A model generated the notes under the pieces. It had not been told where the DNA came from, did no database searches, and saw nothing but the letters and a program-made list of their open reading frames with translations. The position numbers and the translations under genes are program-made. 14,515 bases of DNA from positions 1-14,515 of the forward strand of contig JAIXVO010000491.1 in NCBI GenBank assembly GCA_027482985.1. The letters are read 5' to 3'. Source of the DNA: Cyanobacteriota bacterium. GTDB lineage: Bacteria > Cyanobacteriota > Cyanobacteriia > Leptolyngbyales > Leptolyngbyaceae. Positions within the stretch are counted from its first letter, which is position 1. Each line of letters starts with the position of its first letter. This document shows, piece after piece, positions 1 through 14,515 of the stretch.

Positions 1-3000
1 ACATTCCAGTGCGCGCCAAGGTACTGGTGCCCATTGTCGAGCATGGGTCTAAGCAGGTTTGGGGGTTGTTAATTGGGCATCATTGCGATCGCCCCCACAG
101 ATGGCAACCTTGGGAACTGGAGCTTTTGCGGCAGCTCAGTCAGCATTTGGCGATCGCAGTTCGGCAAATTAAGCTGTATGACCAGCTTCAGCAAGAGCTG
201 CGCCAGCGACGGCAGGCGGAGCAGTCTCTTCGGGCCAGCGAGGCCCGCCTGCAACTGGTCACAGACTCTGTTAATGGTTGTATTGCCTATGTGGATGCCG
301 AGCAGCGCTATCAGTTTGTCAACCACACCTACGAAGTGTGGTTTGGGCGGCAAAAAGCAGATATCTTAGGGTGCACAGTGGCCGCCGTGATTGGTTCCAG
401 CGCCTACGGCAAGACTCGTGCCTACATCGAGCGCGTCCTCGCCGGGGAAACAGTGACCTACGAGATGGAACTGCCCTATCGCTCAGGAGGGCCCCGCTAC
501 GTTTCGGCTTCCCTGGTGCCCGACCGTGGCAGTGATGGGCAGATCAATGGCTACTACGTGCTGATCACCGATATTAGCGATCGCAAACAAGCTGAAGCAC
601 ACCTCGAAATAGTATCGACTCGGCTTAATTTAGCGGTAGAGTCGGCTGATCTCGGCATTTGGGATTGGGATATCACCCGAGATCACCTGGTGTGGGATGC
701 GCGTATGCACGCCCTCTATGGGACGACTCCTGACGAATTTGGGAACCTGTATCAGGCCTGGCTGAGCCGAGTACATCCCGAAGACCAGGCCTATGCTGAA
801 GCGGCTATTCAATCTGCTCTAAGGGGAGAAAAATCCTACGACATCGAATTTCGGGTAGTGCATCCTGACCAAAGCCTGTATTACATCAAAGCCAATGCCT
901 TAGTGCAGCGTGACGCCGCAGGCAATCCCTACCGCATGACAGGGATTAATTACGACATTACCGATCGCAAACAAGCAGAGGTTGAAGTACGCGACCAGGG
1001 CCAGCGGGAAAAACTGCTGCGGGAGATTACCCAGCGGATTCGTCAGTCGCTTGATTTGACCACCATTTTTGCGACCGCCTGTGACGAAATTCGAGCGGTG
1101 TTGCAGTGCGATCGGGTGGGTATTTTCAAGTTTGATCTGGCCTCACACTACACCACGGGCGAGTTTTGCGCCGAGTCTAGGGCCGATGAGTTTGCCACTA
1201 TTTTGGGCATCCCCGTGCAAGACCACTGCTTTGGCGAGCAATATGCCGAGCAGTACCGCCAGGGCCGGTATCTGATCTCCGCCGACATTTTTCAAAACGG
1301 CATCTCGCCCTGCCATGCCGATATCTTAGAGCAGTTTAGCGTGCGGGCTTGCATGGCAATGCCGCTAATGCAGGGGGAAGCGCTATGGGGACTGCTCTGC
1401 GTGCATCAGTGTGGCAGCCCCCGCGCTTGGCAGCCCGCCGAAATCGATCTGGTCCATCAACTGTCTACTCAGATGGCGATCGCGATTCAGCAAGCCCACC
1501 TTTATAAGCAAACCCAGTCTGAATTGCAGGTGCGCAAACAAGCTGAGAAAAAGATTGCCCTCCAACTGCGTCAGCAGCAAGCCCTGGCTGCGATCACCCA
1601 GCACACCCGTGAAACCCTCAATGTCACCGAAATTCTAGGTACGGTTACCCAACAGGTCAAGGATATTCTCCGGGGCGATCGCGTCATCATCTTCCGGCTC
1701 TTCGACAACGGACACACCTGCATCCTAGAAGAAGCCGTTGCCCCCAATTTGCCATCTCTCAAACAGATGCATTGGGATGACGAAGTTTGGTCTAGCGAGA
1801 TTTTGCAGACCTTTTGGCAAGGCAAGCCCCGCATCGTGCCCGATGTCATGAACGATCGCTGGACTGAATGCCTGCAAGACTATTACTTGGCCGGGCAAAT
1901 TCAATCTAAAATGGTCGCCCCAATTCTGCAAGATTGCCGCAACGGCAATCCAAATCGGTGGGTCAACCCTGAAAACAACACCGCCCTCTGGGGCATTTTG
2001 GTGATCTACGCCTGCCAACCCCGCCAGTGGAAAGTACAGGAAGCAGAGCTATTGCAGCTGATTGCCAACCAGTTGGCGATCGCCATTCAGCAATCTACGC
2101 TATTTGAGCGCCTCCAGCAAGAGTTGCTAGAGCGTCAGCATGCCCAGCAGCAGCTCACCGAGCGCAACGAACAACTAGCCAGGGCAACCTACATGAAGGA
2201 TGAATTTTTGGCCAACATGAGCCACGAAATTCGGACTCCCATGAATGGCGTCATCGGCATGACCAAACTTGCCCTCGAAACCGCGCTAACGACTCAACAG
2301 CGGGGCTATCTCACCAAAATCGATAAATCGGCGGCAGTCCTGCTCCATCTTATTAACGACATCCTAGACTTCTCCAAAATTGAAGCCGGTAAGCTTCATC
2401 TAGAGCAGGTGCCCTTCTTCCTAGAGGAGGTACTGACCAACTTGTCCGACGTGACCAGCCTGCAAGCTGACGCAAAAAGTCTAGAGCTGTTGTTCAATGT
2501 GTCCCTTGAGACACCTCTCCAGCTCACAGGGGATCCCCTACGGCTAGGTCAGATTCTATTGAATCTCGTTTCTAACGCGATCAAATTTACTGAGACAGGT
2601 CATATTCTGATATCTGTCAGTTTGGTGACCTGTCAAGCGGCGGTCGCTACCCTGCGGTTTGCCATTGAAGATACTGGCATTGGTCTCAGCGAAGACCAAC
2701 AAAGCCGTCTATTCCAGGCCTTTTCCCAGGGAGATGCCTCAACCACGCGGCGCTTTGGCGGCACGGGCCTAGGACTCGTCATCTCTAAGCGCCTAGTCAA
2801 CCTCATGCAGGGGGAGATCGGCGTCGAAAGCACCTTGGGAGCAGGCAGCACCTTTTGGTTTACGGCGACTTTTACTACCTCCGCCTGCGATCAAAATCTG
2901 CTGGCCAGGTGTCCCCAGGCCCGAGCCACTGGCGGTCGAGTGCTGGTTGTAGACGACAATCCGGCAGCGCGAGCCATCTTGGTGGACATCCTCATCAACT

Positions 3001-4445
3001 TAAACTTTGAGCCAGCAGCAGTGGCCTCAGGCGTCGAGGCGATCGCCGCCCTGGTCGAGGCCTATCAACAACAGCAGCCCTACGATGTGGTCATGGTTGA
3101 CCACATCATGCCCGAGCTAGATGGCCTGGCCCTAATTCAGCAAATCAATCAGCAGGCAGTACTGTCGGCCCTGCCCAAGATCATTATGGTTACGGCCCAT
3201 CGCCAGATCGACATTCAGTCCTTGGCCCAGGCTGCCGGTGTTTCCCACATTCTGTACAAACCCATTCAGCCCTCCCTCCTGCTGAATGCTTTACTTGAAA
3301 CGCTCTCTTCCCATGGATTGCAGGCCACCATACCCGAGCCCCCCGACAGCTTACCGCCGGTACGGCCAAGTCAGTCAGCCCTGCTCAGTCATGTGCGGGT
3401 CTTGCTGGTGGAAGACCACGAGATCAATCAGGAGCTGGCGATCGAGCTCTTGACCCAGGCGGGGGCAACCGTCGTTGTTGCCAACAATGGGCAAGAGGCC
3501 TGTGACTATGTTGCCTGCGAGGCGTTTGATGTGGTGCTGATGGATTGCCAGATGCCTGTGATGGACGGCTATGAGGCAACCCAGCACATCCGTACAATGC
3601 CCCAGGAAGAACAGATTCCCATCATTGCCATGACGGCAAATGCCATGCAGGGCGATCGCGAAAAATGTCTACAAGTCGGCATGAATGATTACCTGACCAA
3701 ACCCATTGTCAAAGAAAACCTATACTCGGTTATCCAGCGATGGGTGCCCCCTAAACAGCTCCCCGCCCCATCCCCCGCCCCATCGATTTCCCTACCCCTC
3801 ACCCCAGCCACCCCTGGCGATTTAGATGCGGCGACCTTTGCCCCCCTGCGTCTGTTTGATACAACCCTGGGGCTGTACTACGTCAACGATAACCCGGTGC
3901 TCTATCGCAAACTGCTGCTGCGATTTCTGACCCAGCAGGCAGACTTTAGTCAGCAAATTGAGCAGGCGATGGTGGCAGGCGATCTCAGCACAGTTCTTCA
4001 CCTAACCCATAGCCTTAAAGGATTATCTGGCACCCTGGGCTGTAAAACGCTACAGACAAAAGCAGCCAGATTAGAAAACATTTTGCGTGAGCAAGAAGAT
4101 TCTGACTTAGACGGTGCGCTAGCCGAAGTTGTACACACATTAGCAGAGGTACTGTCAGAACTCGAAACTTGGGCAATCTCTCAGCAGCCTGCCCCACCCC
4201 CTCCGCAGACGGCTACCGTAGACTGGGCGGCGGTTACGACCCACTGCCATAGGATGGCAGAAGCCTTAGAGGTCAACTTAGGTGAGGCCATGGCAAATTT
4301 AACATTTCTTCAAGAGATGCTATGGAATGTTCCCGATGCCTATGAACTGGTGAATACTCTGACAACAGCGATCGATTGCTTCGATATTGGCGCAGCAAAA
4401 ACTACGTTGCAGAATCTAGTTGCATTAGCGGAGACTCATTCATAA
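1..4445 (+). CDS. Hybrid histidine kinase with a DXCF cyanobacteriochrome-like GAF and C-terminal Hpt (5'-partial)
   Basis: A multi-sensor histidine kinase with a complete internal phosphorelay, probably cytoplasmic (no membrane segment seen). The frame is open through the left edge and the visible part begins inside a GAF domain, so the GTG at 9 is unlikely to be the start. Residues counted from that GTG: GAF tail 1-58; PAS 74-195; PAS 206-325; GAF 341-503; GAF 529-700; HisKA with His739 in SHEIRTP; HATPase with N-box Asn856 and DTGIG at 888; REC with Asp1031; REC with Asp1179; a Pro-rich linker about 1249-1275; Hpt with His1334 in THSLKG; then about 90 helical residues. The middle GAF has DHCF (405-408) and Cys435-His436, the two-cysteine pattern of DXCF cyanobacteriochromes, so bilin-based light sensing is likely. 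The stop overlaps the start of a REC-GGDEF-EAL gene, its probable phosphorelay partner. Domain calls are firm; the light role and the partner are inferences. Confidence 0.93.
1029..1515 (+). other. Domain: GAF, candidate DXCF dual-cysteine cyanobacteriochrome photosensor
   Basis: This sub-region of the kinase encodes a complete GAF domain. The canonical bilin-linking Cys-His pair is at 1311-1316 (SPCHADIL context), followed by FSVRA. About 28 residues earlier, at 1221-1232, lies D-H-C-F, the Asp-X-Cys-Phe motif whose cysteine forms the second, reversible bond to the bilin in DXCF cyanobacteriochromes such as the PixJ type. The stretch ADIFQNG before the Cys-His and [10 protein letters not shown] after it also fit the family. 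Both cysteines being present argues against a non-binding relative. The absorbing colours cannot be read from the sequence. Confidence 0.75.
4430..4433 (+). promoter_or_regulatory. Ribosome binding site for the REC-GGDEF-EAL gene
   Basis: GGAG lies 11 bases before the ATG at 4445, inside the end of the kinase gene. It supports the start at 4445, where the protein begins directly with a REC domain. The same frame stays open upstream to a TTG at 4376, but that stretch lies inside the kinase gene and would add 23 residues with no domain match. Confidence 0.5.
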
Positions 4446-6277
4446 TGCCTCAACCCGAATCTAAAATCCTGATCGTAGACGATCAGCCCGAGAACATTCG
4501 GGTGCTTATAGAAGCGCTTAAGGAAGAGTATGCCACCATTGCTGCCACTAGCGGAGCTAAAGCTAAGGAATTAGCCTGTAAGCATCCTCAACCCGATCTG
4601 ATCTTGCTGGATGTTGTGATGCCGGATATTAGCGGCTATCAGCTATGCGAGGAGTTGAAACAGGATCTGGCGACCAGACATATTCCCATCATTTTTGTGA
4701 CTGGTCTCGGTGACGCCGAAGACGAAGCCAAAGGATTTAGTTTTGGCGGGGCTGACTACATTATCAAGCCGATAAACCCCATAGTGGTAAGAGCCCGCAT
4801 CAAAAGTCACCTGACCATTTTGCGCTTAACTCAGCAGTTGCAAGGCATCAATGAGCTGCTAGAACAAAAAGTTTTAACTAGAACGGTGGAACTCGAAAAA
4901 GCGCTGAAAAAAATTCAGCAGCGGACTCAAGACCTCCATAGGGCGGTATATACCCACGCTCTCACTGGGCTACCCAGTCGCGCGTCTCTGATCGAATCTC
5001 TGCAATCGTTGTGTGATAAATTTGTCGGCAAGCAAAAACCCTTTGCCCTGATAATTCTGGATTTTGTTCGGTTCAGCCTGATCAATAACTCCTTGGGGCA
5101 TGCGCTGGGTGATCAAGCCTTAACTGAGGTTGCTCGGCGTCTTCAGACCATCCTTCGCCAGGGCGATGTTCTGTATCAAACTGGCGGCGATGAGTTTTGT
5201 TTTCTAACATTTCAGCTCAAAACTGAAGCTGAAGCAGCAGAATATGCTGAGCAAATCTTAGCCAGCCTATCTAACAGCATCAAAGTAGGTGGCCATGAGA
5301 TCTTTGTGCATGCTTGCATGGGAATTGTTACCGATAGCCAGCATTCCCAAACTCCGATTGAGATTTTGCGCGACGGAGATACGGCTCTACAACGGGCTAA
5401 GGCAGAAGGAACTGAAGGATACTACATTTTTCAGTCCGACCTCCATGAAGCTGCAATCCATCGACTCGATTTAGAAAACGCCCTAAATCATGCCATTAAA
5501 AATGAAGAGTTTTTGCTATTTTATCAACCTATCATAAATTTAAATACTAATCAGATCGATGGCTTCGAAGCATTAATTCGTTGGCAGCGTCCAAATCATG
5601 GAATCATATCTCCTGAAGTTTTCATACCCTGCCTAGAAGAAACAGGGATGATTGTACCAGTGGGGAAATGGGTTCTGCAACAAGCCATTCAGCAACTGGT
5701 AATTTGGCAGGCTGAATTTGGCTTTTTATCTATGAGCGTAAATTTGGCAACTCGGCAACTTAATCATCCAAATTTTCTCGCCGATCTCGATTCGGCTCTA
5801 CAAGCGGCCCCACTTTACCCTGGCTGTTTAAAATTAGAAGTAACAGAAAGTGGCTTGATCGAAAATCAAGAAAAAACCCTGGAAAAAATCCATGCAATTC
5901 GCGAGCGTGGTCTCCGCATTAGTATTGACGACTTTGGCACCGGCTATTCCTCCCTTAGCTATCTAAAACAACTGCCGGTGGATATTCTAAAAATTGATCG
6001 CTGTTTCATCAAAGACATTGGCGCTAATGGCGAAAACTCTGAAATCGCCAAGGCCATTCTCTACATCGGTGATGCTCTAGGGATGAGTATTGTCGCCGAA
6101 GGATGCGAAACTCAGGCTCAAGTTGATTTTCTACGCCAACTTAACTGCCCCTATGCTCAAGGTTATTTGTTTGCTAAACCGATGTCTTCGGAGGATGCTA
6201 CCCACTGGCTTCAGAGCCACCGTCTAGAACACCCTGGAGTTAAGGACTTTGCAAACCATGGCCCAAGCATCATCTAA
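4445..6277 (+). CDS. Response regulator with GGDEF and EAL domains (cyclic di-GMP turnover)
   Basis: A 610-residue output protein that probably makes or breaks down the second messenger cyclic di-GMP under phosphorylation control. REC 5-125 has acidic pair Asp12/13, phospho-acceptor Asp56, Thr86 and Lys108. A coiled-coil linker (about 130-165) leads to GGDEF 171-340 with GGDEF at 247-251 and an RxxD inhibitory site at 238-241. EAL about 350-600 has EAL at 375-377 and matches to the other family motifs: SVNLA, EVTES, DDFGTGYSS, LKID, VAEGCET and QGYLF. The phosphodiesterase therefore looks active. The cyclase is less certain: the usual DxD-x-FK-x-IND stretch reads DFVRFSLINN, keeping the first Asp and the Asn but losing the second Asp and the Lys. 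The start shares one base with the kinase stop (TAATG), implying one operon and translational coupling. The gene is AT-richer than its neighbours and has no GCGATCGC site. Confidence 0.94.
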   Translation: MPQPESKILIVDDQPENIRVLIEALKEEYATIAATSGAKAKELACKHPQPDLILLDVVMPDISGYQLCEELKQDLATRHIPIIFVTGLGDAEDEAKGFSFGGADYIIKPINPIVVRARIKSHLTILRLTQQLQGINELLEQKVLTRTVELEKALKKIQQRTQDLHRAVYTHALTGLPSRASLIESLQSLCDKFVGKQKPFALIILDFVRFSLINNSLGHALGDQALTEVARRLQTILRQGDVLYQTGGDEFCFLTFQLKTEAEAAEYAEQILASLSNSIKVGGHEIFVHACMGIVTDSQHSQTPIEILRDGDTALQRAKAEGTEGYYIFQSDLHEAAIHRLDLENALNHAIKNEEFLLFYQPIINLNTNQIDGFEALIRWQRPNHGIISPEVFIPCLEETGMIVPVGKWVLQQAIQQLVIWQAEFGFLSMSVNLATRQLNHPNFLADLDSALQAAPLYPGCLKLEVTESGLIENQEKTLEKIHAIRERGLRISIDDFGTGYSSLSYLKQLPVDILKIDRCFIKDIGANGENSEIAKAILYIGDALGMSIVAEGCETQAQVDFLRQLNCPYAQGYLFAKPMSSEDATHWLQSHRLEHPGVKDFANHGPSII

Positions 6278-6881: not shown

Positions 6882-9800
6882 TTGGCTCTTCATATGCGCC
6901 ATACTTTTGTTGACATTACCGCTTTTGTAGCCAGCACAACATCGGTCATCGATGTCGTGGGCTTAATGGGAAATAGCCAACCGCGACTTTCCTGTGTTTT
7001 TATTGCTGACGGAGAAAATTTGGTCGGCAGTTTTGCCGAGAGCGCGCTGCTGCCGCTGCTGGCCCAGGGGCGATCGCTCGCCGATCTGACCATGGCTGAG
7101 GTGATGCAGACGCCAGTGATCAGCGTGCGGCAGTCTGATCTCAGCGATATCTCAATTCCAGTGCAACTTTTACAGCAGCACGCCACCGACTGTCTGGCCG
7201 TGCTAGATGAGCAGGGTGCCCTGGCGGGGGTGATTACCCGAGGCAGTTTGCAACCCCACCTGTGGGAGGTGCTTCAGGCCCAGCAGGCCCAACTCACGCA
7301 CCAGCAGGAGGTGGCCACCATCCTCAGTCAAAGTGCTGCCCAGTATCAGGCCTTGCTCCAGGCGCTGCCCGACTTGGTCATCCAAACCTCGGCAGAGGGG
7401 GTCTATCTCGACCGCGTGGGCTCTGCTGACTTCGGGCTCTACTGTGGCGATGCAGACCTGGTGGGCAAACGGGGCGAGGAGATTTTGCCAGCCGAGGTAG
7501 CGGCCCGACGCCTAGAGTACATTCGGCAGGCCTTGCAGACAAGACAGCTGCAAATCTATGACCAGCAGCTTGTCATCAACGGCAGCCTGCGCACTGAGGA
7601 AGTCAGAATTAATGTCTGCGGCGACAACCAAGTGCTGGTGATCGTGCGCGACATTACCGATCGCAAAACCCTGGAAGACACCAACCGCGCCATCCTCGAA
7701 GCGATTCCTGACTTGCTGGTTCGCATTAACTGGCAGGGGCAATATCTGGGGATATTGAGTGGTGGCTCGGTCAAAAAAGTGCTGCTACCCCCATCGGATG
7801 TCTCCCCCGGCACCGTGTATGACGTGTTGCCCTACCATCTGGCGGAGCAGAAAGCCCAGGCCGCTCAGCGAGCCCTGGAGACAGGAACCATTCTGCTCTA
7901 CGAGCAGCAGATTGAGATCAACGGCGAGCTCTGTTGGGAAGAGGTGCGGGTTAGCCCCATCAATGGTGATGAAGCTCTGTTGATGATTCGCGATATTAGC
8001 GAGCGTAAACAGGCTGAAATTGCCCTATATGAGCTCAATCAAGAGCTAGAAGCTCGGGTCGACGAGCGCACGGCGGCGCTCCGTGCCAGCGAAGAACGCT
8101 GGCACCTCGCCGTCGAGGGCAGTGCCCTCTCTATATGGGATTGGAATGTGACAACCGGGCAGGTTTTTCGCACCAACCGCTGGTACGAATTGCGGGGGCT
8201 GCCTGAGAATGAGGTCAGCAGTGCCCCAGAAGCTTGGTCTGATCAGATCCACCCCGATGACCGCGATCGCGTCCTGACCACTATGGCTGACCATCTGGCC
8301 CACAAGACAGCGTTCTATCAGCAGGAATATCGCATTCAATGCAAAGACGGTGCCTATATTTGGATACTTGACCGGGGCCTGGCCATCTGGGATGAGGCCG
8401 GTAACCCAACCCGCTTCATCGGCTCCGAAATGGATATTACCCCACGTAAACAAGCCGAACTAGAGGCCCAAACGCTGAGGCGGCAGCTGGAGTTTGTGAT
8501 CTCCTCTAGCCCAGCGGCCATCTTTACCTGCAAGCTCGACGGGGACACTACCTGCATGAGCGACAATATTGTCAACCTGACTGGATATACGTCCGCAGAG
8601 TTTTTGTCCCGCCCCGATTTTTGGACGATCCACCTCCATCCTCAGGATGCACCACGCCTGTTGGCAGAGCTGCCAGCCCTGTTTGACCAGGGGCAGCATA
8701 TCCACGAATATCGGTTTTTGCACAAAGCTGGACATTACGTGTGGATACGCAACGAACTGCGGCTGATGCGCGATGCCCAGGGCACACCGGTCGAAATTGT
8801 GGGCTACTTTGCCGATATTGGCGATCGCAAAGCCATTGAAAATCAGCTCCGAAAGAGCGAAGCCGCCCTGTCAGAAGCTCAGCGCATGGTGCATTTGGGC
8901 AGTTGGGAAGTCGATGTGGCCACCAACAAAATCAGCTGGTCCGATGAACTGTTCCATGTTTTTGGGCTTGACCCGAGCGAGCCTGAACCTAACTATGCGG
9001 AGCATTTCAATCTGATTCATCCCGAGGATCTCGATCGCCTAGAGCAGTGCTTGGATCGGGCCAGGCGGGAGGGCACCCCCTACGCAATCGAGCTGCGCAT
9101 TCTCAGGGTTGACGGCACCACCGGCTATCTAGACGCACGGGGTAAAGCCAAACGGGATAACCAGGGGCAAATTGTCAAAATCTTTGGCACTGCGCTCGAT
9201 ATTACCAGCCGAAAACTTGCTGAACTTGAGCGGCAAACCCTATCCAATCGTCTCAGCCTGGCTCTGAAATCCGGGGCGATCGGCTGTTGGGATTTCGATA
9301 TTCAACAAAACATCGGCCTCTGGGATGAGCGGATGTATGAGCTCTACGGCATTTCGCCTGGGACCAGGGGGTCTGTTTTACCCTGCGAGGTTTGGGCCAA
9401 TAGTATTCATCCCGACGATCTGCAAACCATAGAAACGTTGCTGCAGCAGGCCATTCTGGGGCAAGCCGTCTACGATCCTGAGTTTCGGGTCGTGCATCCC
9501 GATGGCAGCATCCACCACATCAAGGCCTACGGCATGGTGGTGCACGACGCCGAGGGCAATCCCAAGAGCATGATTGGGGTAAACCTAGACATTAGCGAGC
9601 GCAAACAAGCCGAAGAACGCCTACAGCAGATCAATGAACGACTCCGTTTAACCAACGCCGAGCTCGATCGCGCCACCCGCCTCAAAGATGAATTTTTAGC
9701 CAACATGAGCCATGAGCTCCGCACCCCGCTCAACGCCATTTTAGGCATGTCTGAGGGGCTCAAAGAACATGTCTTTGGCAGCTTAACTGATCGTCAAAGG

Positions 9801-11222
9801 CAGGCCGTTGAGACGATCGAGCGCAGCGGCACCCACCTGTTAGAGCTGATTAACGATATTCTTGATCTATCTAAAATTGAGGCGGGCAAGCTTGAGCTAG
9901 AGACGGCGTTAGTCAATGTTCAAGATCTGTGCGAATCGAGTTTAACCTTTGTGCGACAAATGGCTTTTTCCAAGGGTATTCGCCTGAGCCTAGAGAGCGT
10001 TCAGGTCATGCCAGATATTGCGGTTGATGAACGGCGCATTCGACAGATTTTGATCAATCTGCTCAGCAATGCCATCAAATTTACGCCCACCGATGGGCAG
10101 ATCACTCTGCGGGCTGGCGTTGAACAGCAAAACGGTATCGATCACCTCAAATTGTCGGTGATCGATACCGGCATTGGCATTGCCCCAGGCGATATCGCCA
10201 AACTCTTTCAGCCCTTTGTGCAAATCGACAGTAGTTTAAGCCGCCAATACAACGGCACGGGGCTAGGTCTAGCCCTGGTTCGCAAGATCGCTGAACTGCA
10301 TGGGGGCACGGTGTCAGTGACCAGTGAGGTCAATCAGGGCAGCTGCTTTACCCTTGATCTGCCCTACCTTACAGAAAGAGCCCTACCGGCGATCGCCACC
10401 TCAACGCCCCCAAGCAGCCTGCTCGATATCCATAACTCCCGCGTCCTTGTGATCGAAGACTCTGCCACAGCGGCAGGTCAGATCGCTCGCTATCTTGAAG
10501 AGCAAGGGATGGAATCTATCATCCGCTCCAGCGGCGATCAGGTGATGAGCGATGTGATCACGTTCCAGCCGGCCCTGATTATTCTCGATATTTTGCTGCC
10601 CAATCTGTCTGGATGGGATGTGCTACGGCAGCTCAAAACCGCTCCCGAAACCCTAGCCATCCCGGTCATTGTGGTGTCTGTCGTAGACGAGCGATCCTAC
10701 GGGTTGTCCCTCGGCGCATCAGAGTATTTGGTTAAACCCATTAGCCGCCACCAGCTGCAGCAGGCGATCGAGAGACTGTCACACAACCCCCAGGCACCCC
10801 TGTCTCGACCGCCGGTTGTCCCCTTGCCCGACTCGTCTCAACCGGCGGTCGAGACGCCGCTGATTTTGCTAGCCGAAGACAATGACATGAATGTGGCTAC
10901 GGTTTCCAGCTACCTCACAGCCCTAGGGTATCGCCTGATCTACGCAAAAAATGGTCAGACAGCCGTCGAGCTGGCCCAAACTCAGATGCCCGACCTGATC
11001 TTGATGGATATTCAAATGCCCGATATGGATGGGCTAGAGGCCATGCAGCTGATCCGCAGCGACGCTCGCTGTGCCAATATCCCCATCGTGGCCCTAACCG
11101 CCTTGGCCATGCCCGGCGATCGAGAGCGATGCCTAGCCGCAGGCGCGAATCACTACCTGTCAAAGCCCTTCAAAATGAAAGCGTTAAAGGGTTTAATTCA
11201 GCAGCTTTTGCAGTCGGCCTAA
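6882..11222 (+). CDS. CBS-PAS(x6) hybrid histidine kinase with two receiver domains
   Basis: A 1446-residue cytoplasmic-looking sensor kinase. Residues 5-125 form a CBS pair, a module that often binds adenosine nucleotides. Six PAS domains follow at about 150-262, 267-378, 405-525, 536-652, 663-780 and 789-910. Most end in the usual D-I-x-x-RK motif, and a coiled-coil linker lies at 381-406. HisKA has His944 in SHELRTP; HATPase has N-box Asn1063, VIDTGIG and NGTGLGL; REC 1186-1305 has Asp1236 and REC 1325-1440 has Asp1376. No Hpt is present, so onward transfer would need an outside partner. PAS 1 and 2 look like a tandem duplication (YDQQLVING and YEQQIEING at matching places). The ligands of the PAS domains cannot be told from sequence. 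Start TTG 6882 is chosen on ribosome-site spacing; ATG 6894 is possible. Stop TAA. Confidence 0.92.
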   Translation: MALHMRHTFVDITAFVASTTSVIDVVGLMGNSQPRLSCVFIADGENLVGSFAESALLPLLAQGRSLADLTMAEVMQTPVISVRQSDLSDISIPVQLLQQHATDCLAVLDEQGALAGVITRGSLQPHLWEVLQAQQAQLTHQQEVATILSQSAAQYQALLQALPDLVIQTSAEGVYLDRVGSADFGLYCGDADLVGKRGEEILPAEVAARRLEYIRQALQTRQLQIYDQQLVINGSLRTEEVRINVCGDNQVLVIVRDITDRKTLEDTNRAILEAIPDLLVRINWQGQYLGILSGGSVKKVLLPPSDVSPGTVYDVLPYHLAEQKAQAAQRALETGTILLYEQQIEINGELCWEEVRVSPINGDEALLMIRDISERKQAEIALYELNQELEARVDERTAALRASEERWHLAVEGSALSIWDWNVTTGQVFRTNRWYELRGLPENEVSSAPEAWSDQIHPDDRDRVLTTMADHLAHKTAFYQQEYRIQCKDGAYIWILDRGLAIWDEAGNPTRFIGSEMDITPRKQAELEAQTLRRQLEFVISSSPAAIFTCKLDGDTTCMSDNIVNLTGYTSAEFLSRPDFWTIHLHPQDAPRLLAELPALFDQGQHIHEYRFLHKAGHYVWIRNELRLMRDAQGTPVEIVGYFADIGDRKAIENQLRKSEAALSEAQRMVHLGSWEVDVATNKISWSDELFHVFGLDPSEPEPNYAEHFNLIHPEDLDRLEQCLDRARREGTPYAIELRILRVDGTTGYLDARGKAKRDNQGQIVKIFGTALDITSRKLAELERQTLSNRLSLALKSGAIGCWDFDIQQNIGLWDERMYELYGISPGTRGSVLPCEVWANSIHPDDLQTIETLLQQAILGQAVYDPEFRVVHPDGSIHHIKAYGMVVHDAEGNPKSMIGVNLDISERKQAEERLQQINERLRLTNAELDRATRLKDEFLANMSHELRTPLNAILGMSEGLKEHVFGSLTDRQRQAVETIERSGTHLLELINDILDLSKIEAGKLELETALVNVQDLCESSLTFVRQMAFSKGIRLSLESVQVMPDIAVDERRIRQILINLLSNAIKFTPTDGQITLRAGVEQQNGIDHLKLSVIDTGIGIAPGDIAKLFQPFVQIDSSLSRQYNGTGLGLALVRKIAELHGGTVSVTSEVNQGSCFTLDLPYLTERALPAIATSTPPSSLLDIHNSRVLVIEDSATAAGQIARYLEEQGMESIIRSSGDQVMSDVITFQPALIILDILLPNLSGWDVLRQLKTAPETLAIPVIVVSVVDERSYGLSLGASEYLVKPISRHQLQQAIERLSHNPQAPLSRPPVVPLPDSSQPAVETPLILLAEDNDMNVATVSSYLTALGYRLIYAKNGQTAVELAQTQMPDLILMDIQMPDMDGLEAMQLIRSDARCANIPIVALTALAMPGDRERCLAAGANHYLSKPFKMKALKGLIQQLLQSA
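10133..10170. repeat. Perfect inverted repeat, 14-bp arms, inside the kinase ATPase domain
   Basis: CGGTATCGATCACC at 10133-10146 is matched exactly by its reverse complement at 10157-10170, with a 10-base loop. It lies in coding sequence that includes the Asp-Thr-Gly codons of the ATP-binding G1 box. Confidence 0.85.
10802..10855. repeat. Perfect inverted repeat, 17-bp arms, in the REC-REC linker
   Basis: GTCTCGACCGCCGGTTG at 10802-10818 is matched exactly by its reverse complement at 10839-10855, with a 20-base loop. It falls in the Pro/Ser-rich linker between the two receiver domains, where an in-frame insertion would be tolerated. The stem is GC-rich and should be stable in mRNA. Confidence 0.9.
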
Positions 11223-11585: not shown

Positions 11586-13841
11586 ATGGCAAAACGATCA
11601 CTTAAAGCTTCTCGAGATGGAATTAGTCAAGCTAAGCGAGCCTTTGACCTGAAAGGATGGACTCAGGAATATCTGGCCGCAGAGGTAGAGTTACAGACTC
11701 GTCAGCCGATCTGGAAGTTCTTCTCGGGTCGCCCAGTAGAGCGCCATATATTTATCGATATCTGTTTTACCCTCGATCTCGATTGGGAAGATATTGTCGA
11801 TCGCTCGGCGTTTGTTTCAGAGTCTCCTCAACCGAGCGCTATTCCTCAAGGGGACGCTGAGCTGGCCGGGGAGGATGACATGGCCCTGGTGCGATCGCAC
11901 CTGATTACCCTGACCCAAGCTCAGTGCCAACTGCTAGAGCTGCCCCTCGACTTCCACCAACCCTTTACCCTGGCCCAGATTTATACCGACGCCTATGTGC
12001 ACCCTTACCAGCGATTGGGGCAACCCTCAAGTACGCCCAAATTGTTGGCTGAGCCAGCCATTCAGCCTCACTCTCGGGTAATGGTGCTGGGGGGGCCGGG
12101 GGCCGGCAAAACGACCCTGCTCCAACACCTGGCCTTAGAGATCGGCAGTGGTCATCTGCGAGCTGATGAGCAGATCTATCTGCCGGTCTTTTTGCGCCTG
12201 CGGCAGCTGACCCTGGTGCCTGAAGCCGACCTAGATGTGCAGCATTGCCTCAATCAGCGCTGGTTAGCCTCTGGGCTGACCCAGGCCCAAATTGATCATC
12301 TGTGGCAGCAGGGGCAGCTCTGGCTGCTGCTAGATGGCTGGGACGAGCTACCCAGTTCACGGCATCGGTTGGTGACTCAGCAAATCCAGACGCTGCTAGA
12401 CACCTATCCTGGGCTACGGGTGATCGTGTCGGGGCGCAGTGGTGGCTCTATGCCCCAGCTCAATGGCTTAGTCACCCTAGAACTGGCGGAGTTTGCCCCT
12501 CCCCAGATCGAGGCGTTTGTGTACCGCTGGTTTACGGCCAACCAGCCAACCCAGGGGCCGGTTTTGGCCGAAACTTGCTTAAAGGCGCTACACCATCCCA
12601 ATAACGATCGCCTCTGGGAAATGGCCCTCACCCCCATCTTGCTACACCTGATGTGTCTGGTCTTTCACAGCTCAGGGCAGTTCCCTGACCAGCGCAGCAA
12701 GCTGTACCAGCAGGCCCTCGATCTGTTGTTAGGGCAGTGGGATCAGCAGCGCGGCATTAGCCGCTGCCAGCCGCTGCAGCAGCTTTCTACCACCGATCTG
12801 CTGGGCATTCTCTGCGACGTAGCGACCCACAGCTTTGAGCAGGGCAAAGTCTTGCTCGACGAGGCCGAACTTTTGGGCCTCATTGCCCAAGCCCTGGCTC
12901 ACCGCGACCCGCAGGTGACTACCCTGGAACGGCGCTGGGCTGACAGCAAAGCCGTTTTGCAGATCTTGATCGAGCATTACGGCATGCTCACGGAGCGGGA
13001 GCTGGGCAGCTATGCCTTTGCCCACCTGAGTTTTCAGGAATATCTCACAGCCCGCCGCTGGGCGTTGACGGCGCTAGAGCGGCAGGGGACTAGCGACTGG
13101 GCCGACCTGGCGGTTCACTTGCCCGATGCCCGCTGGCGGGAAGTGATTGTACTCACGGTGGAAATGGCACCCCAGGCAGAAACTCTGTGTACCGCTCTCT
13201 GGCAGCAGAGCCAGCGCTATGTGTCGGCCCATCCTGAGCTGTGGCCCCTGCTGCAATGGGCGCAAACCCAGGCCGAGCAATCTGCTACCCCCTACCATCT
13301 GGCGGCTCTGCGAGGGTTTTACCTGGGCCTGCGACTGGGCCAGGGGCTCGATCTGGCCCTGGCCCTAGACGCTCGGCTGGGCGTTGACTTGCCGTCAGAT
13401 CTAGCCCTAGATTTAGCCCTGACCCAGCTACTGAATCAGGGGCAGCAATGGTTGAGCGCCCCCACGCCACAGGCAGGCTTTGACCTGCTGTTTGCCCTGG
13501 TTCTGCACCAGCGGTTTACCCTGGCCGAACCGTTTGCCCAAGATTTACAGCAGCTTCAGGCTCAATTACTCGATGCGCTGGACGACCAGGTGGGGCTGGT
13601 AACTTGGTGCGACAGGTTCGGGGCAGATTGGCTGCGATCGCTCAGTCACGCGATTACCACCCATCGCTACTGGGAGATTGATCTGATCGACCTATCCCCC
13701 TGCCCGTCCCTGGAAACTTACTACCAGATGCAGCGACTGCTGGTCGACTGCCTGCGCCACAATCGCACCCTAGCCGCCGCCACGGTGCGTACCTTCGAAC
13801 ATTGTTTATTGCTCTCTGAGGTACAGTATGAAGCCGCCTAG
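11586..13841 (+). CDS. NACHT-family STAND NTPase with N-terminal HTH-like domain
   Basis: A 751-residue regulatory or defence ATPase. Residues about 9-72 (RDGISQAKRAF, then GWTQEYLA, WKFFSGRPV and LDLDWEDI) match the HTH-like N-terminal domain found in many cyanobacterial NACHT proteins. The NACHT core has Walker A GGPGAGKTT (169-177, Lys175), Walker B LLLDGWDELP with Asp250, and the downstream FAHLSFQEYLTARR motif near 480-492. Residues about 579-625 are a Leu/Asp/Ala-rich stretch (LDLALALD, LALDLAL), and the C-terminus is helical. Bacterial NACHT proteins are STAND switches that oligomerise on sensing a trigger; several protect against phage. No separate effector domain is recognisable. ATG 11586 is preceded by GGGA at 11576-11579. 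The 3' end overlaps a GAF-PAS sensor gene by 14 bp, so the two are probably co-translated. The NTPase call is firm; the trigger and outcome are unknown. Confidence 0.92.
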   Translation: MAKRSLKASRDGISQAKRAFDLKGWTQEYLAAEVELQTRQPIWKFFSGRPVERHIFIDICFTLDLDWEDIVDRSAFVSESPQPSAIPQGDAELAGEDDMALVRSHLITLTQAQCQLLELPLDFHQPFTLAQIYTDAYVHPYQRLGQPSSTPKLLAEPAIQPHSRVMVLGGPGAGKTTLLQHLALEIGSGHLRADEQIYLPVFLRLRQLTLVPEADLDVQHCLNQRWLASGLTQAQIDHLWQQGQLWLLLDGWDELPSSRHRLVTQQIQTLLDTYPGLRVIVSGRSGGSMPQLNGLVTLELAEFAPPQIEAFVYRWFTANQPTQGPVLAETCLKALHHPNNDRLWEMALTPILLHLMCLVFHSSGQFPDQRSKLYQQALDLLLGQWDQQRGISRCQPLQQLSTTDLLGILCDVATHSFEQGKVLLDEAELLGLIAQALAHRDPQVTTLERRWADSKAVLQILIEHYGMLTERELGSYAFAHLSFQEYLTARRWALTALERQGTSDWADLAVHLPDARWREVIVLTVEMAPQAETLCTALWQQSQRYVSAHPELWPLLQWAQTQAEQSATPYHLAALRGFYLGLRLGQGLDLALALDARLGVDLPSDLALDLALTQLLNQGQQWLSAPTPQAGFDLLFALVLHQRFTLAEPFAQDLQQLQAQLLDALDDQVGLVTWCDRFGADWLRSLSHAITTHRYWEIDLIDLSPCPSLETYYQMQRLLVDCLRHNRTLAAATVRTFEHCLLLSEVQYEAA
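13818..13821 (+). promoter_or_regulatory. Ribosome binding site for the GAF-PAS gene
   Basis: GAGG lies six bases before the ATG at 13828, inside the end of the NACHT gene. It supports a start that overlaps that gene by 14 bp in the +1 frame. Confidence 0.6.
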
Positions 13842-14515
13842 CCCGCTGGAGTCGACCCACTTTCTCAACCTGGTATCTACCACAGCGCTGCGGCTATATC
13901 AGGCTGAAAATTTGGATGAAATCCTCCAAAACATCGTTCAGGATGTGCAGCAACTGCTGGAAACCGACCGGGTAGTCATCTACCAACTTGACTCTAAAAG
14001 CCAAGCCAAGTCGGTGGCCATGGCCGCTAAACCAGGCTTACCGCCGCTGCCCCATAGTTTGATCAACCTCACCCCCTGTCTCAATCAATGGTTAGCCGAA
14101 GCCACCCTGCAAGAGTTGCGGGCCGTCGACAACCTGGACGACAGCGATCTCGCCCTCTGCGATCTCACCCTCTGCGAGCAAACTCTGCTGGCGGCGCTGG
14201 GCGTTCAAGCCAGTCTGCTGATCCCGATTTACCTCAGCTCTGACTGGCAACGGTCTTTCCATTGGGGAGACGACGCTACCACCAGCCATGAAATTTGGGG
14301 TTTTTTGGTCGCCCAACAGTGCCATCCTCGCCAATGGAGCCCGCTCGAGAAAGCGTTTCTGCGCCAGCTAACCCAGCACCTCTTCCATGCCATTCAGCAG
14401 GTGCATCTGAGGCAATTTTCAGACCGGCTGATCGAGAGTGCGGTAGACGGCATCATTGCCCTCGATACCAACTATCGCTATCAGGTGTGGAATAGCCCCA
14501 TGGAGCAGTTGTCGG
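13828..14515 (+). CDS. GAF-PAS sensor protein, probably a signalling kinase (3'-partial)
   Basis: The reading frame starts at ATG 13828 and is open through the right edge, giving 229 visible codons. Residues about 25-195 form a GAF domain: LDEILQNIVQDVQQLL and TDRVVIYQL at the start, LLIPIYL and IWGFLVAQQCHPRQWSP in the middle, and FLRQLTQHLFHAIQQ at the end. A PAS domain follows (FSDRLIESAVDGIIALD). The GAF resembles cyanobacterial phytochrome-like domains. A cysteine sits at the canonical bilin position but is followed by Glu rather than His, so bilin binding is doubtful. A 15-bp tandem duplication at 14146-14175 gives DLALC-DLTLC just before that position. The unseen part probably holds further sensors and a kinase or cyclase output; this cannot be judged here. 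Overlap with the NACHT gene suggests a shared transcript and function. Confidence 0.85.
   Translation, partial: MKPPSPLESTHFLNLVSTTALRLYQAENLDEILQNIVQDVQQLLETDRVVIYQLDSKSQAKSVAMAAKPGLPPLPHSLINLTPCLNQWLAEATLQELRAVDNLDDSDLALCDLTLCEQTLLAALGVQASLLIPIYLSSDWQRSFHWGDDATTSHEIWGFLVAQQCHPRQWSPLEKAFLRQLTQHLFHAIQQVHLRQFSDRLIESAVDGIIALDTNYRYQVWNSPMEQLS
14146..14175 (+). repeat. 15-bp tandem duplication inside the GAF domain
   Basis: GATCTCGCCCTCTGC is followed at once by GATCTCACCCTCTGC, identical at 14 of 15 positions and in frame. The copies encode DLALC and DLTLC, so each supplies a cysteine. Confidence 0.9.

Follow-up and report, generated by a model that had tools for sequence, protein, structure and literature searches.

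A likely DXCF and far-red-type cyanobacteriochrome tandem in a very large hybrid histidine kinase encoded next to a cyclic di-GMP response regulator

The stretch of DNA analyzed here, hereafter the window, is one whole contig of 14,515 nucleotides (JAIXVO010000491.1; G000:C694) from a cyanobacterial genome, G000, that is 84% complete and distributed over 838 contigs. On its forward strand, the window starts inside a hybrid histidine kinase gene (positions 3–4445, open frame and Pfam matches) whose encoded domains follow one another in the order C-terminal tail of a first GAF domain (GAF-A), PAS, PAS, a GAF domain with an Asp-Xaa-Cys-Phe (DXCF) motif (GAF-B), a second complete GAF domain of far-red type (GAF-C), HisKA, HATPase, two receiver (REC) domains, and Hpt. 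The gene that comes next encodes a REC–GGDEF–EAL response regulator (4445–6277, Pfam). We consider it likely that GAF-B and GAF-C form a tandem of a DXCF dual-cysteine cyanobacteriochrome, most likely of the teal kind, and a far-red-type cyanobacteriochrome, and that this tandem controls a very large hybrid kinase signaling to the adjacent cyclic di-GMP (c-di-GMP) response regulator.

GAF-B, the domain on which the original prediction centered, was recovered by Pfam, alignments, trees, and structure modeling at positions 1008–1541, that is, over 178 residues and thus slightly beyond the 1029–1515 first proposed; the Pfam GAF score, summed across three stretches of the kinase protein, amounts to 167 bits. 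The two motifs are encoded exactly where they had been predicted, with DHCF at 1221–1232 (the second cysteine, C74, at 1227–1229) and the canonical Cys-His pair (C102 and H103) at 1311–1316, on the helix position usual in the family. Three further residues of the domain stand out, namely a Phe on strand beta2 followed by a Cys (F53 at 1164–1166 and C54 at 1167–1169), a Phe on the helix (F110, 1335–1337), which is found as such in AnPixJg2 and is described for teal-DXCF domains, and a third pocket cysteine (C115, 1350–1352), located at the place of N535 of TePixJ, beside the D ring of the bilin.

We looked at the conservation of the two motif cysteines in two ways. A homologue search with the GAF-B region returned 1238 proteins at E ≤0.001, 120 of which were listed; these 120 hold 624 domain matches, with several per protein, and 300 of the matches have both [DE]xCF and the canonical Cys. 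In addition, genomes were scanned with two peptide patterns taken from outside both motifs, which gave at least 570 loci, and the 80 best were kept: a Cys occupies the DXCF position in 72 of these 80 loci and the canonical position in 76, both cysteines are found in 70, and strict DXCF and CH motifs in 60. Given the composition of GAF-B itself, a D.CF would be expected by chance at a fixed place with a probability of about 1e-4 and a CH with a probability of about 1.5e-3, and the conservation of both cysteines among related domains and loci rules out a chance motif. The motif is nonetheless not strictly kept, and the nearest relative, the kinase of genome G046, weighs against our reading on this point, with EPCF instead of DXCF. 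The solved structures closest to GAF-B, by sequence as well as by model, are bilin-binding cyanobacteriochromes, and genome G000 encodes one ferredoxin-dependent bilin reductase and two heme oxygenases. NCBIfam models gave no name to either GAF-B or GAF-C, the best matches being far below cut-offs.

Two phylogenies place GAF-B more precisely. In a tree of 161 rows, filtered by length and E-value and including 30 random homologue domains, GAF-B falls inside a clade of 108 rows (SH-like approximate likelihood ratio test [SH-aLRT] 91), 94 of which have [DE]xCF, 92 with the canonical Cys as well, and none of which is a PDB reference. In a tree of 63 rows, which were hand-picked like those of our 45-row and 30-row alignments, it belongs to a clade of 11 rows (bootstrap 98, SH-aLRT 92), 10 with [DE]xCF and one with DQWF, and this clade joins the red/green references (91/87). 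In both trees GAF-B thus groups with other DXCF domains, apart from the red/green domains. A placement outside the bilin-binding clade had been named beforehand as the outcome that would speak against a DXCF cyanobacteriochrome, and neither tree shows it; with the clade placement, the closest solved structures, and the recurrence of the cysteines all pointing the same way, the assignment of GAF-B to the DXCF dual-cysteine cyanobacteriochromes is supported by sequence and model. TePixJ lies outside the GAF-B clade in both trees, although its branch is long and its placement unsure, and five more GAF domains of G000 with a D.CF motif (L003, L004, L006, L011, and L018, with DPCF, DTCF, or DECF) also fall outside it, which implies that DXCF domains do not form one clade here; passages of PMC11284453 likewise report the motif in more than one lineage.

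Three other cyanobacteriochrome types were considered for GAF-B and rejected. The first is the PPHK/NpR3784 type, PPHK being the best PDB sequence match of GAF-B: this dual-sensor histidine kinase (PDB 6oap) also embeds a cyanobacteriochrome in a multidomain kinase, but it has DQYF in place of DHCF and hence lacks the second Cys that GAF-B possesses, and it is separate from GAF-B in the trees, where it groups with miRFP670nano. The red/green type is set aside since GAF-B has a Val at the Trp place of the WXDXXL motif and is again separate in the trees. Lastly, the extra C54 could have evoked an insert-Cys type, but, as judged from the structural model alone, this residue lies in a strand (residues 50–58) and not in a loop.

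Concerning the color of the photocycle, passages of PMC5240096 and PMC5578081 describe the combination of DXCF with a beta2 Phe and a helix Phe as a feature of teal-DXCF domains, in which it is tied to a trapped-twist mechanism. GAF-B satisfies this residue pattern with F53, F110, and its DXCF motif, and, judging from partial descriptions of teal-DXCF domains such as NpR1597g1 (PMC5240096), it resembles them in these residues as well as in its kinship to red/green domains; from the same descriptions it would differ from them in having two additional Cys, one at the D-ring site and one after the beta2 Phe. Because both Phe places are so occupied, a teal photoproduct is favored over a green one, and a blue/teal cycle may be expected rather than a blue/green one. 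The original prediction had pointed to blue-to-green or similar photoswitching; a blue/green cycle like that of TePixJ (PDB 3vv4 and 4fof) we regard as unlikely: TePixJ shares with GAF-B the fold, the second Cys of DXCF, and the canonical Cys-His, and PMC5578081 describes green or orange photoproducts for some DXCF domains, yet TePixJ has Val and Leu where GAF-B has the two Phe, carries an Asn at the D-ring site, and stands outside the GAF-B clade, with the reservation on its long branch made above. What tells against our reading of GAF-B is that domains of measured spectrum number zero inside the DXCF clade of GAF-B in both trees, so that the teal reading rests on the two Phe, and that the residue at position 115 is atypical, being Asn in 289 of the 300 DXCF homologue domains and Cys, as in GAF-B, in only three.

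This unusual C115 deserves attention for its own sake, since it could alter the photocycle, either by competing with C74 for the bilin or by changing dark reversion. It aligns with N535 of TePixJ, which sits beside the D ring and whose side chain, as stated in part of PMC6955287, moves and relaxes with that ring upon illumination, and a Cys at this position is common to the window, to G046, to 2 of the 80 loci (L071 and L078), and to the three homologue domains just mentioned. We nevertheless hold such an effect to be decidedly unlikely, as the place tolerates change: while 62 of the 80 loci have Asn there, 16 have Gln, Thr, Ser, or His. As for C54, a Cys at its position was found in none of the 300 homologue domains and none of the 80 loci. 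In the open-licence literature searched, no cyanobacteriochrome with a third cysteine was found.

The original prediction made no mention of GAF-C, the domain next to GAF-B (1575–2147), which is cyanobacteriochrome-like too and appears as a relative of Anacy_2551g3. Its best solved match is PDB 6uv8 (E 3.1e-62, 59.5% identity over 168 residues), which is also the top Foldseek match (E 2.3e-20) of its structural model (predicted local distance difference test [pLDDT] 87.2), and the two domains share a clade supported at 100/99 in the 63-row tree. According to passages of PMC11480761, 6UV8 is Anacy_2551g3 and peaks at 728 nm. GAF-C and Anacy_2551g3 have in common a Trp, a Glu (E70 of GAF-C, 1782–1784), the Cys-Leu of the canonical attachment site (C99 and L100, 1869–1874), and a Lys (K112, 1908–1910). 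As in RcaE, the Glu precedes the Cys and the Lys follows it by 13 residues, and we take these Glu, Cys-Leu, and Lys places to be those of the protochromic triad. Glu, Cys, Leu, and Lys are all kept in 32 of 34 far-red-like domains (at least 45% identity). A discordant element is the Tyr at position 145 (Y145, 2007–2009), where all 34 of these relatives have His: at this His of the last strand GAF-C does not match its relatives, even though the His is not family-defining in the literature cited, and it further differs from Anacy_2551g3 by one residue fewer soon afterwards. Overall, kinship to one measured domain indicates that GAF-C is probably a far-red-type cyanobacteriochrome, a view tempered by the Tyr.

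Another conceivable reading is a loss of bilin binding in GAF-B, GAF-C, or both, which would then act as structural or dimerizing modules while the signal comes from the PAS domains. The replacement in GAF-C of an otherwise kept His and the existence in G000 of several GAF domains devoid of one or both cysteines would go in this direction. We judge this scenario highly improbable, because the attachment cysteines persist while the rest of both domains diverged: in a 10-row alignment of GAF-B, C74 and C102 are invariant with the other nine rows 51–64% identical to the window, and in the 30-row alignment of GAF-C, C99 is nearly invariant with the other 29 rows at 55–65%. A bolder proposal, to which we grant little chance, is that of a three-cysteine pocket in GAF-B, in which C115 (shared with G046, L071, and L078) would add to or compete for the bilin and produce a photocycle so far undescribed for DXCF domains. 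Since the same kinase also carries the far-red domain with its Tyr-for-His change, the two together would then sense light ratios by a photochemistry that the lineages described so far do not show.

The association of the two sensors is itself recurrent, for a far-red-like GAF domain (at least 44% identical to Anacy_2551g3) occurs in frame within 200 bases after a GAF-B-like domain in 27 of the 80 loci, the upstream domain being in each case the best match to GAF-B, with a motif altered in a few of them (e.g., L077, L093, and L106). These tandems come from loci of Nostoc, Pseudanabaena, Nodosilinea, Cyanobium, and others, and at one locus (L111) a far-red domain 79.7% identical to Anacy_2551g3 is also preceded by a DHCF/CH domain. 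G000 carries a second tandem kinase on contig C80 (L066, 3456–7220), whose two domains show 58% identity to GAF-B and 60% to GAF-C.

Downstream of the tandem, Pfam confirmed the signaling modules that had been predicted: HisKA and HATPase_c (2193–2867, with NMSHEIRTP at 2214), two REC domains (2937–3734, with motifs from 3090 and 3534 that surround the expected phospho-acceptor Asp), and one Hpt domain (3912–4163, with HSLKG at 4008), followed by the REC–GGDEF–EAL gene. The kinase stop codon overlaps the likely start of this gene by one base (TAATG, 4443–4447). In the encoded protein, RxxD stands five residues ahead of GGDEF (motif from 5156), and EAL (5567) and DDFGTGYSSL (within a motif starting at 5918) are present as well; with these RxxD/GGDEF and EAL motifs the protein may make or break c-di-GMP. 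In G046, too, a REC–GGDEF–EAL gene lies directly downstream of the kinase, with an overlap provided that its start codon is the ATG at L061:11154.

Whether kinase and response regulator are partners or simply neighbors was assessed on 88 loci, which include two contigs fetched twice (L068/L096 and L069/L085) and some that end short downstream, by requiring a REC match no farther than about 250 bases from the kinase stop. A same-strand REC–GGDEF–EAL gene is found just downstream in 12 of them (L061, L074, L075, L076, L081, L089, L092, L094, L102, L108, L114, and L125; L075 is from the cultured Nodosilinea nodulosa PCC 7104), a count made on relatives of this kinase only and from which L112, L113, and L122, where GGDEF is farther off, were excluded. 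The converse figures argue against a dedicated pair: no such gene was found just downstream in the other 76, partly since the locus ends, and at eight of these 76 its place is taken by a REC-plus-kinase gene (L062, L065, L073, L078, L084, L086, L097, and L137); the partner of the kinase could be encoded elsewhere in the genome. That the two genes are neighbors and not partners, the kinase signaling to another regulator, therefore has some standing, but we find it unlikely in view of the overlap of the genes in the window (and in G046, under the same start) and of the recurrence of REC–GGDEF–EAL in 12 loci although EAL domains are scarce, with 4 matches in G000 and 0 to 31 across the 58 genomes searched. 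The wiring rather looks selected, because the tandem recurs and some tandems have the same REC–GGDEF–EAL gene downstream.

On this basis, a mechanism can be proposed for the tandem and its output, in which bilin binding, colors, and a phosphorelay to the GGDEF–EAL protein are all predictions. In GAF-B, phycocyanobilin would be attached at Cys102 and converted to phycoviolobilin, and in the dark Cys74 would be added to C10 of the bilin, resulting in blue absorption; light would release Cys74, and the Phe residues on beta2 and on the helix would keep the resulting photoproduct blue-shifted, in the teal. In GAF-C, phycocyanobilin would be bound at Cys99, with a dark state absorbing far-red light. 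The helices that link GAF-B, GAF-C, and HisKA could then transmit both states to the kinase, and phosphoryl transfer through its REC and Hpt domains to the REC of the GGDEF–EAL protein would set c-di-GMP according to the balance between short- and long-wave light.

If this were true, a single kinase would weigh short-wave (blue/teal) against far-red light with an output to c-di-GMP. Control of c-di-GMP by light color is known from SesA, SesB, and SesC of Thermosynechococcus, which, as described in part of PMC5871770, are cyanobacteriochromes that themselves make or degrade the messenger, when the link in the window would consist of a kinase and a response regulator. The open-licence literature searched yielded no case in which DXCF and far-red cyanobacteriochromes are brought together with a histidine kinase and GGDEF. 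The parts are known, GAF-B is one of many DXCF domains, and the present combination is a further member of a widespread set; the far-red neighbor and the linked c-di-GMP gene raise its interest above that of a lone DXCF domain, and the unusual pocket residues provide natural variants for color-tuning work.

With regard to the large hybrid kinase that had been announced, its domains are as claimed but the gene is incomplete, being open at the window start, where its 5′ end is missing. Ahead of GAF-B, the window encodes the GAF-A tail (9–206), with a near-copy of the entire domain situated close to the end of contig C672, and the two PAS domains (264–950; Pfam PAS_4 at residues 88–196 and PAS_3 at residues 229–316). 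Bases 1–791 of the window are 91.8% identical to the last 791 bases of C672 (G000:C672:12408–13198, L067), a match that reaches an end of each contig, and in G046, the closest relative found, an open frame encoding about 2943 residues matches the C672 gene in its first part and the window gene in its second part, in that order. The simplest reading of these contigs, which were compared and not joined, is that their ends are probably two strain variants of one gene, which would give a protein near 2800 residues with a PAS array in front, C672 then providing the N-terminal half that the window lacks. The upstream GAF-A (L067:12092–12622 and L061:6362–6898), which sits on a long branch, keeps the canonical Cys but shows neither DXCF nor the His.

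The remainder of the window encodes a second large hybrid kinase (6882–11222), in which Pfam detects several PAS domains and a match to CBS besides HisKA, HATPase, and two REC domains, and then a NACHT ATPase with an NCH2 domain at its C-terminus (11586–13841), which anti-phage models match weakly only. The last gene (13828–14514) runs off the end of the contig and encodes the beginning of a further GAF protein, with cyanobacteriochrome-like PDB matches (best E 1.8e-13) and a Cys that aligns with the canonical Cys and is followed by Glu.
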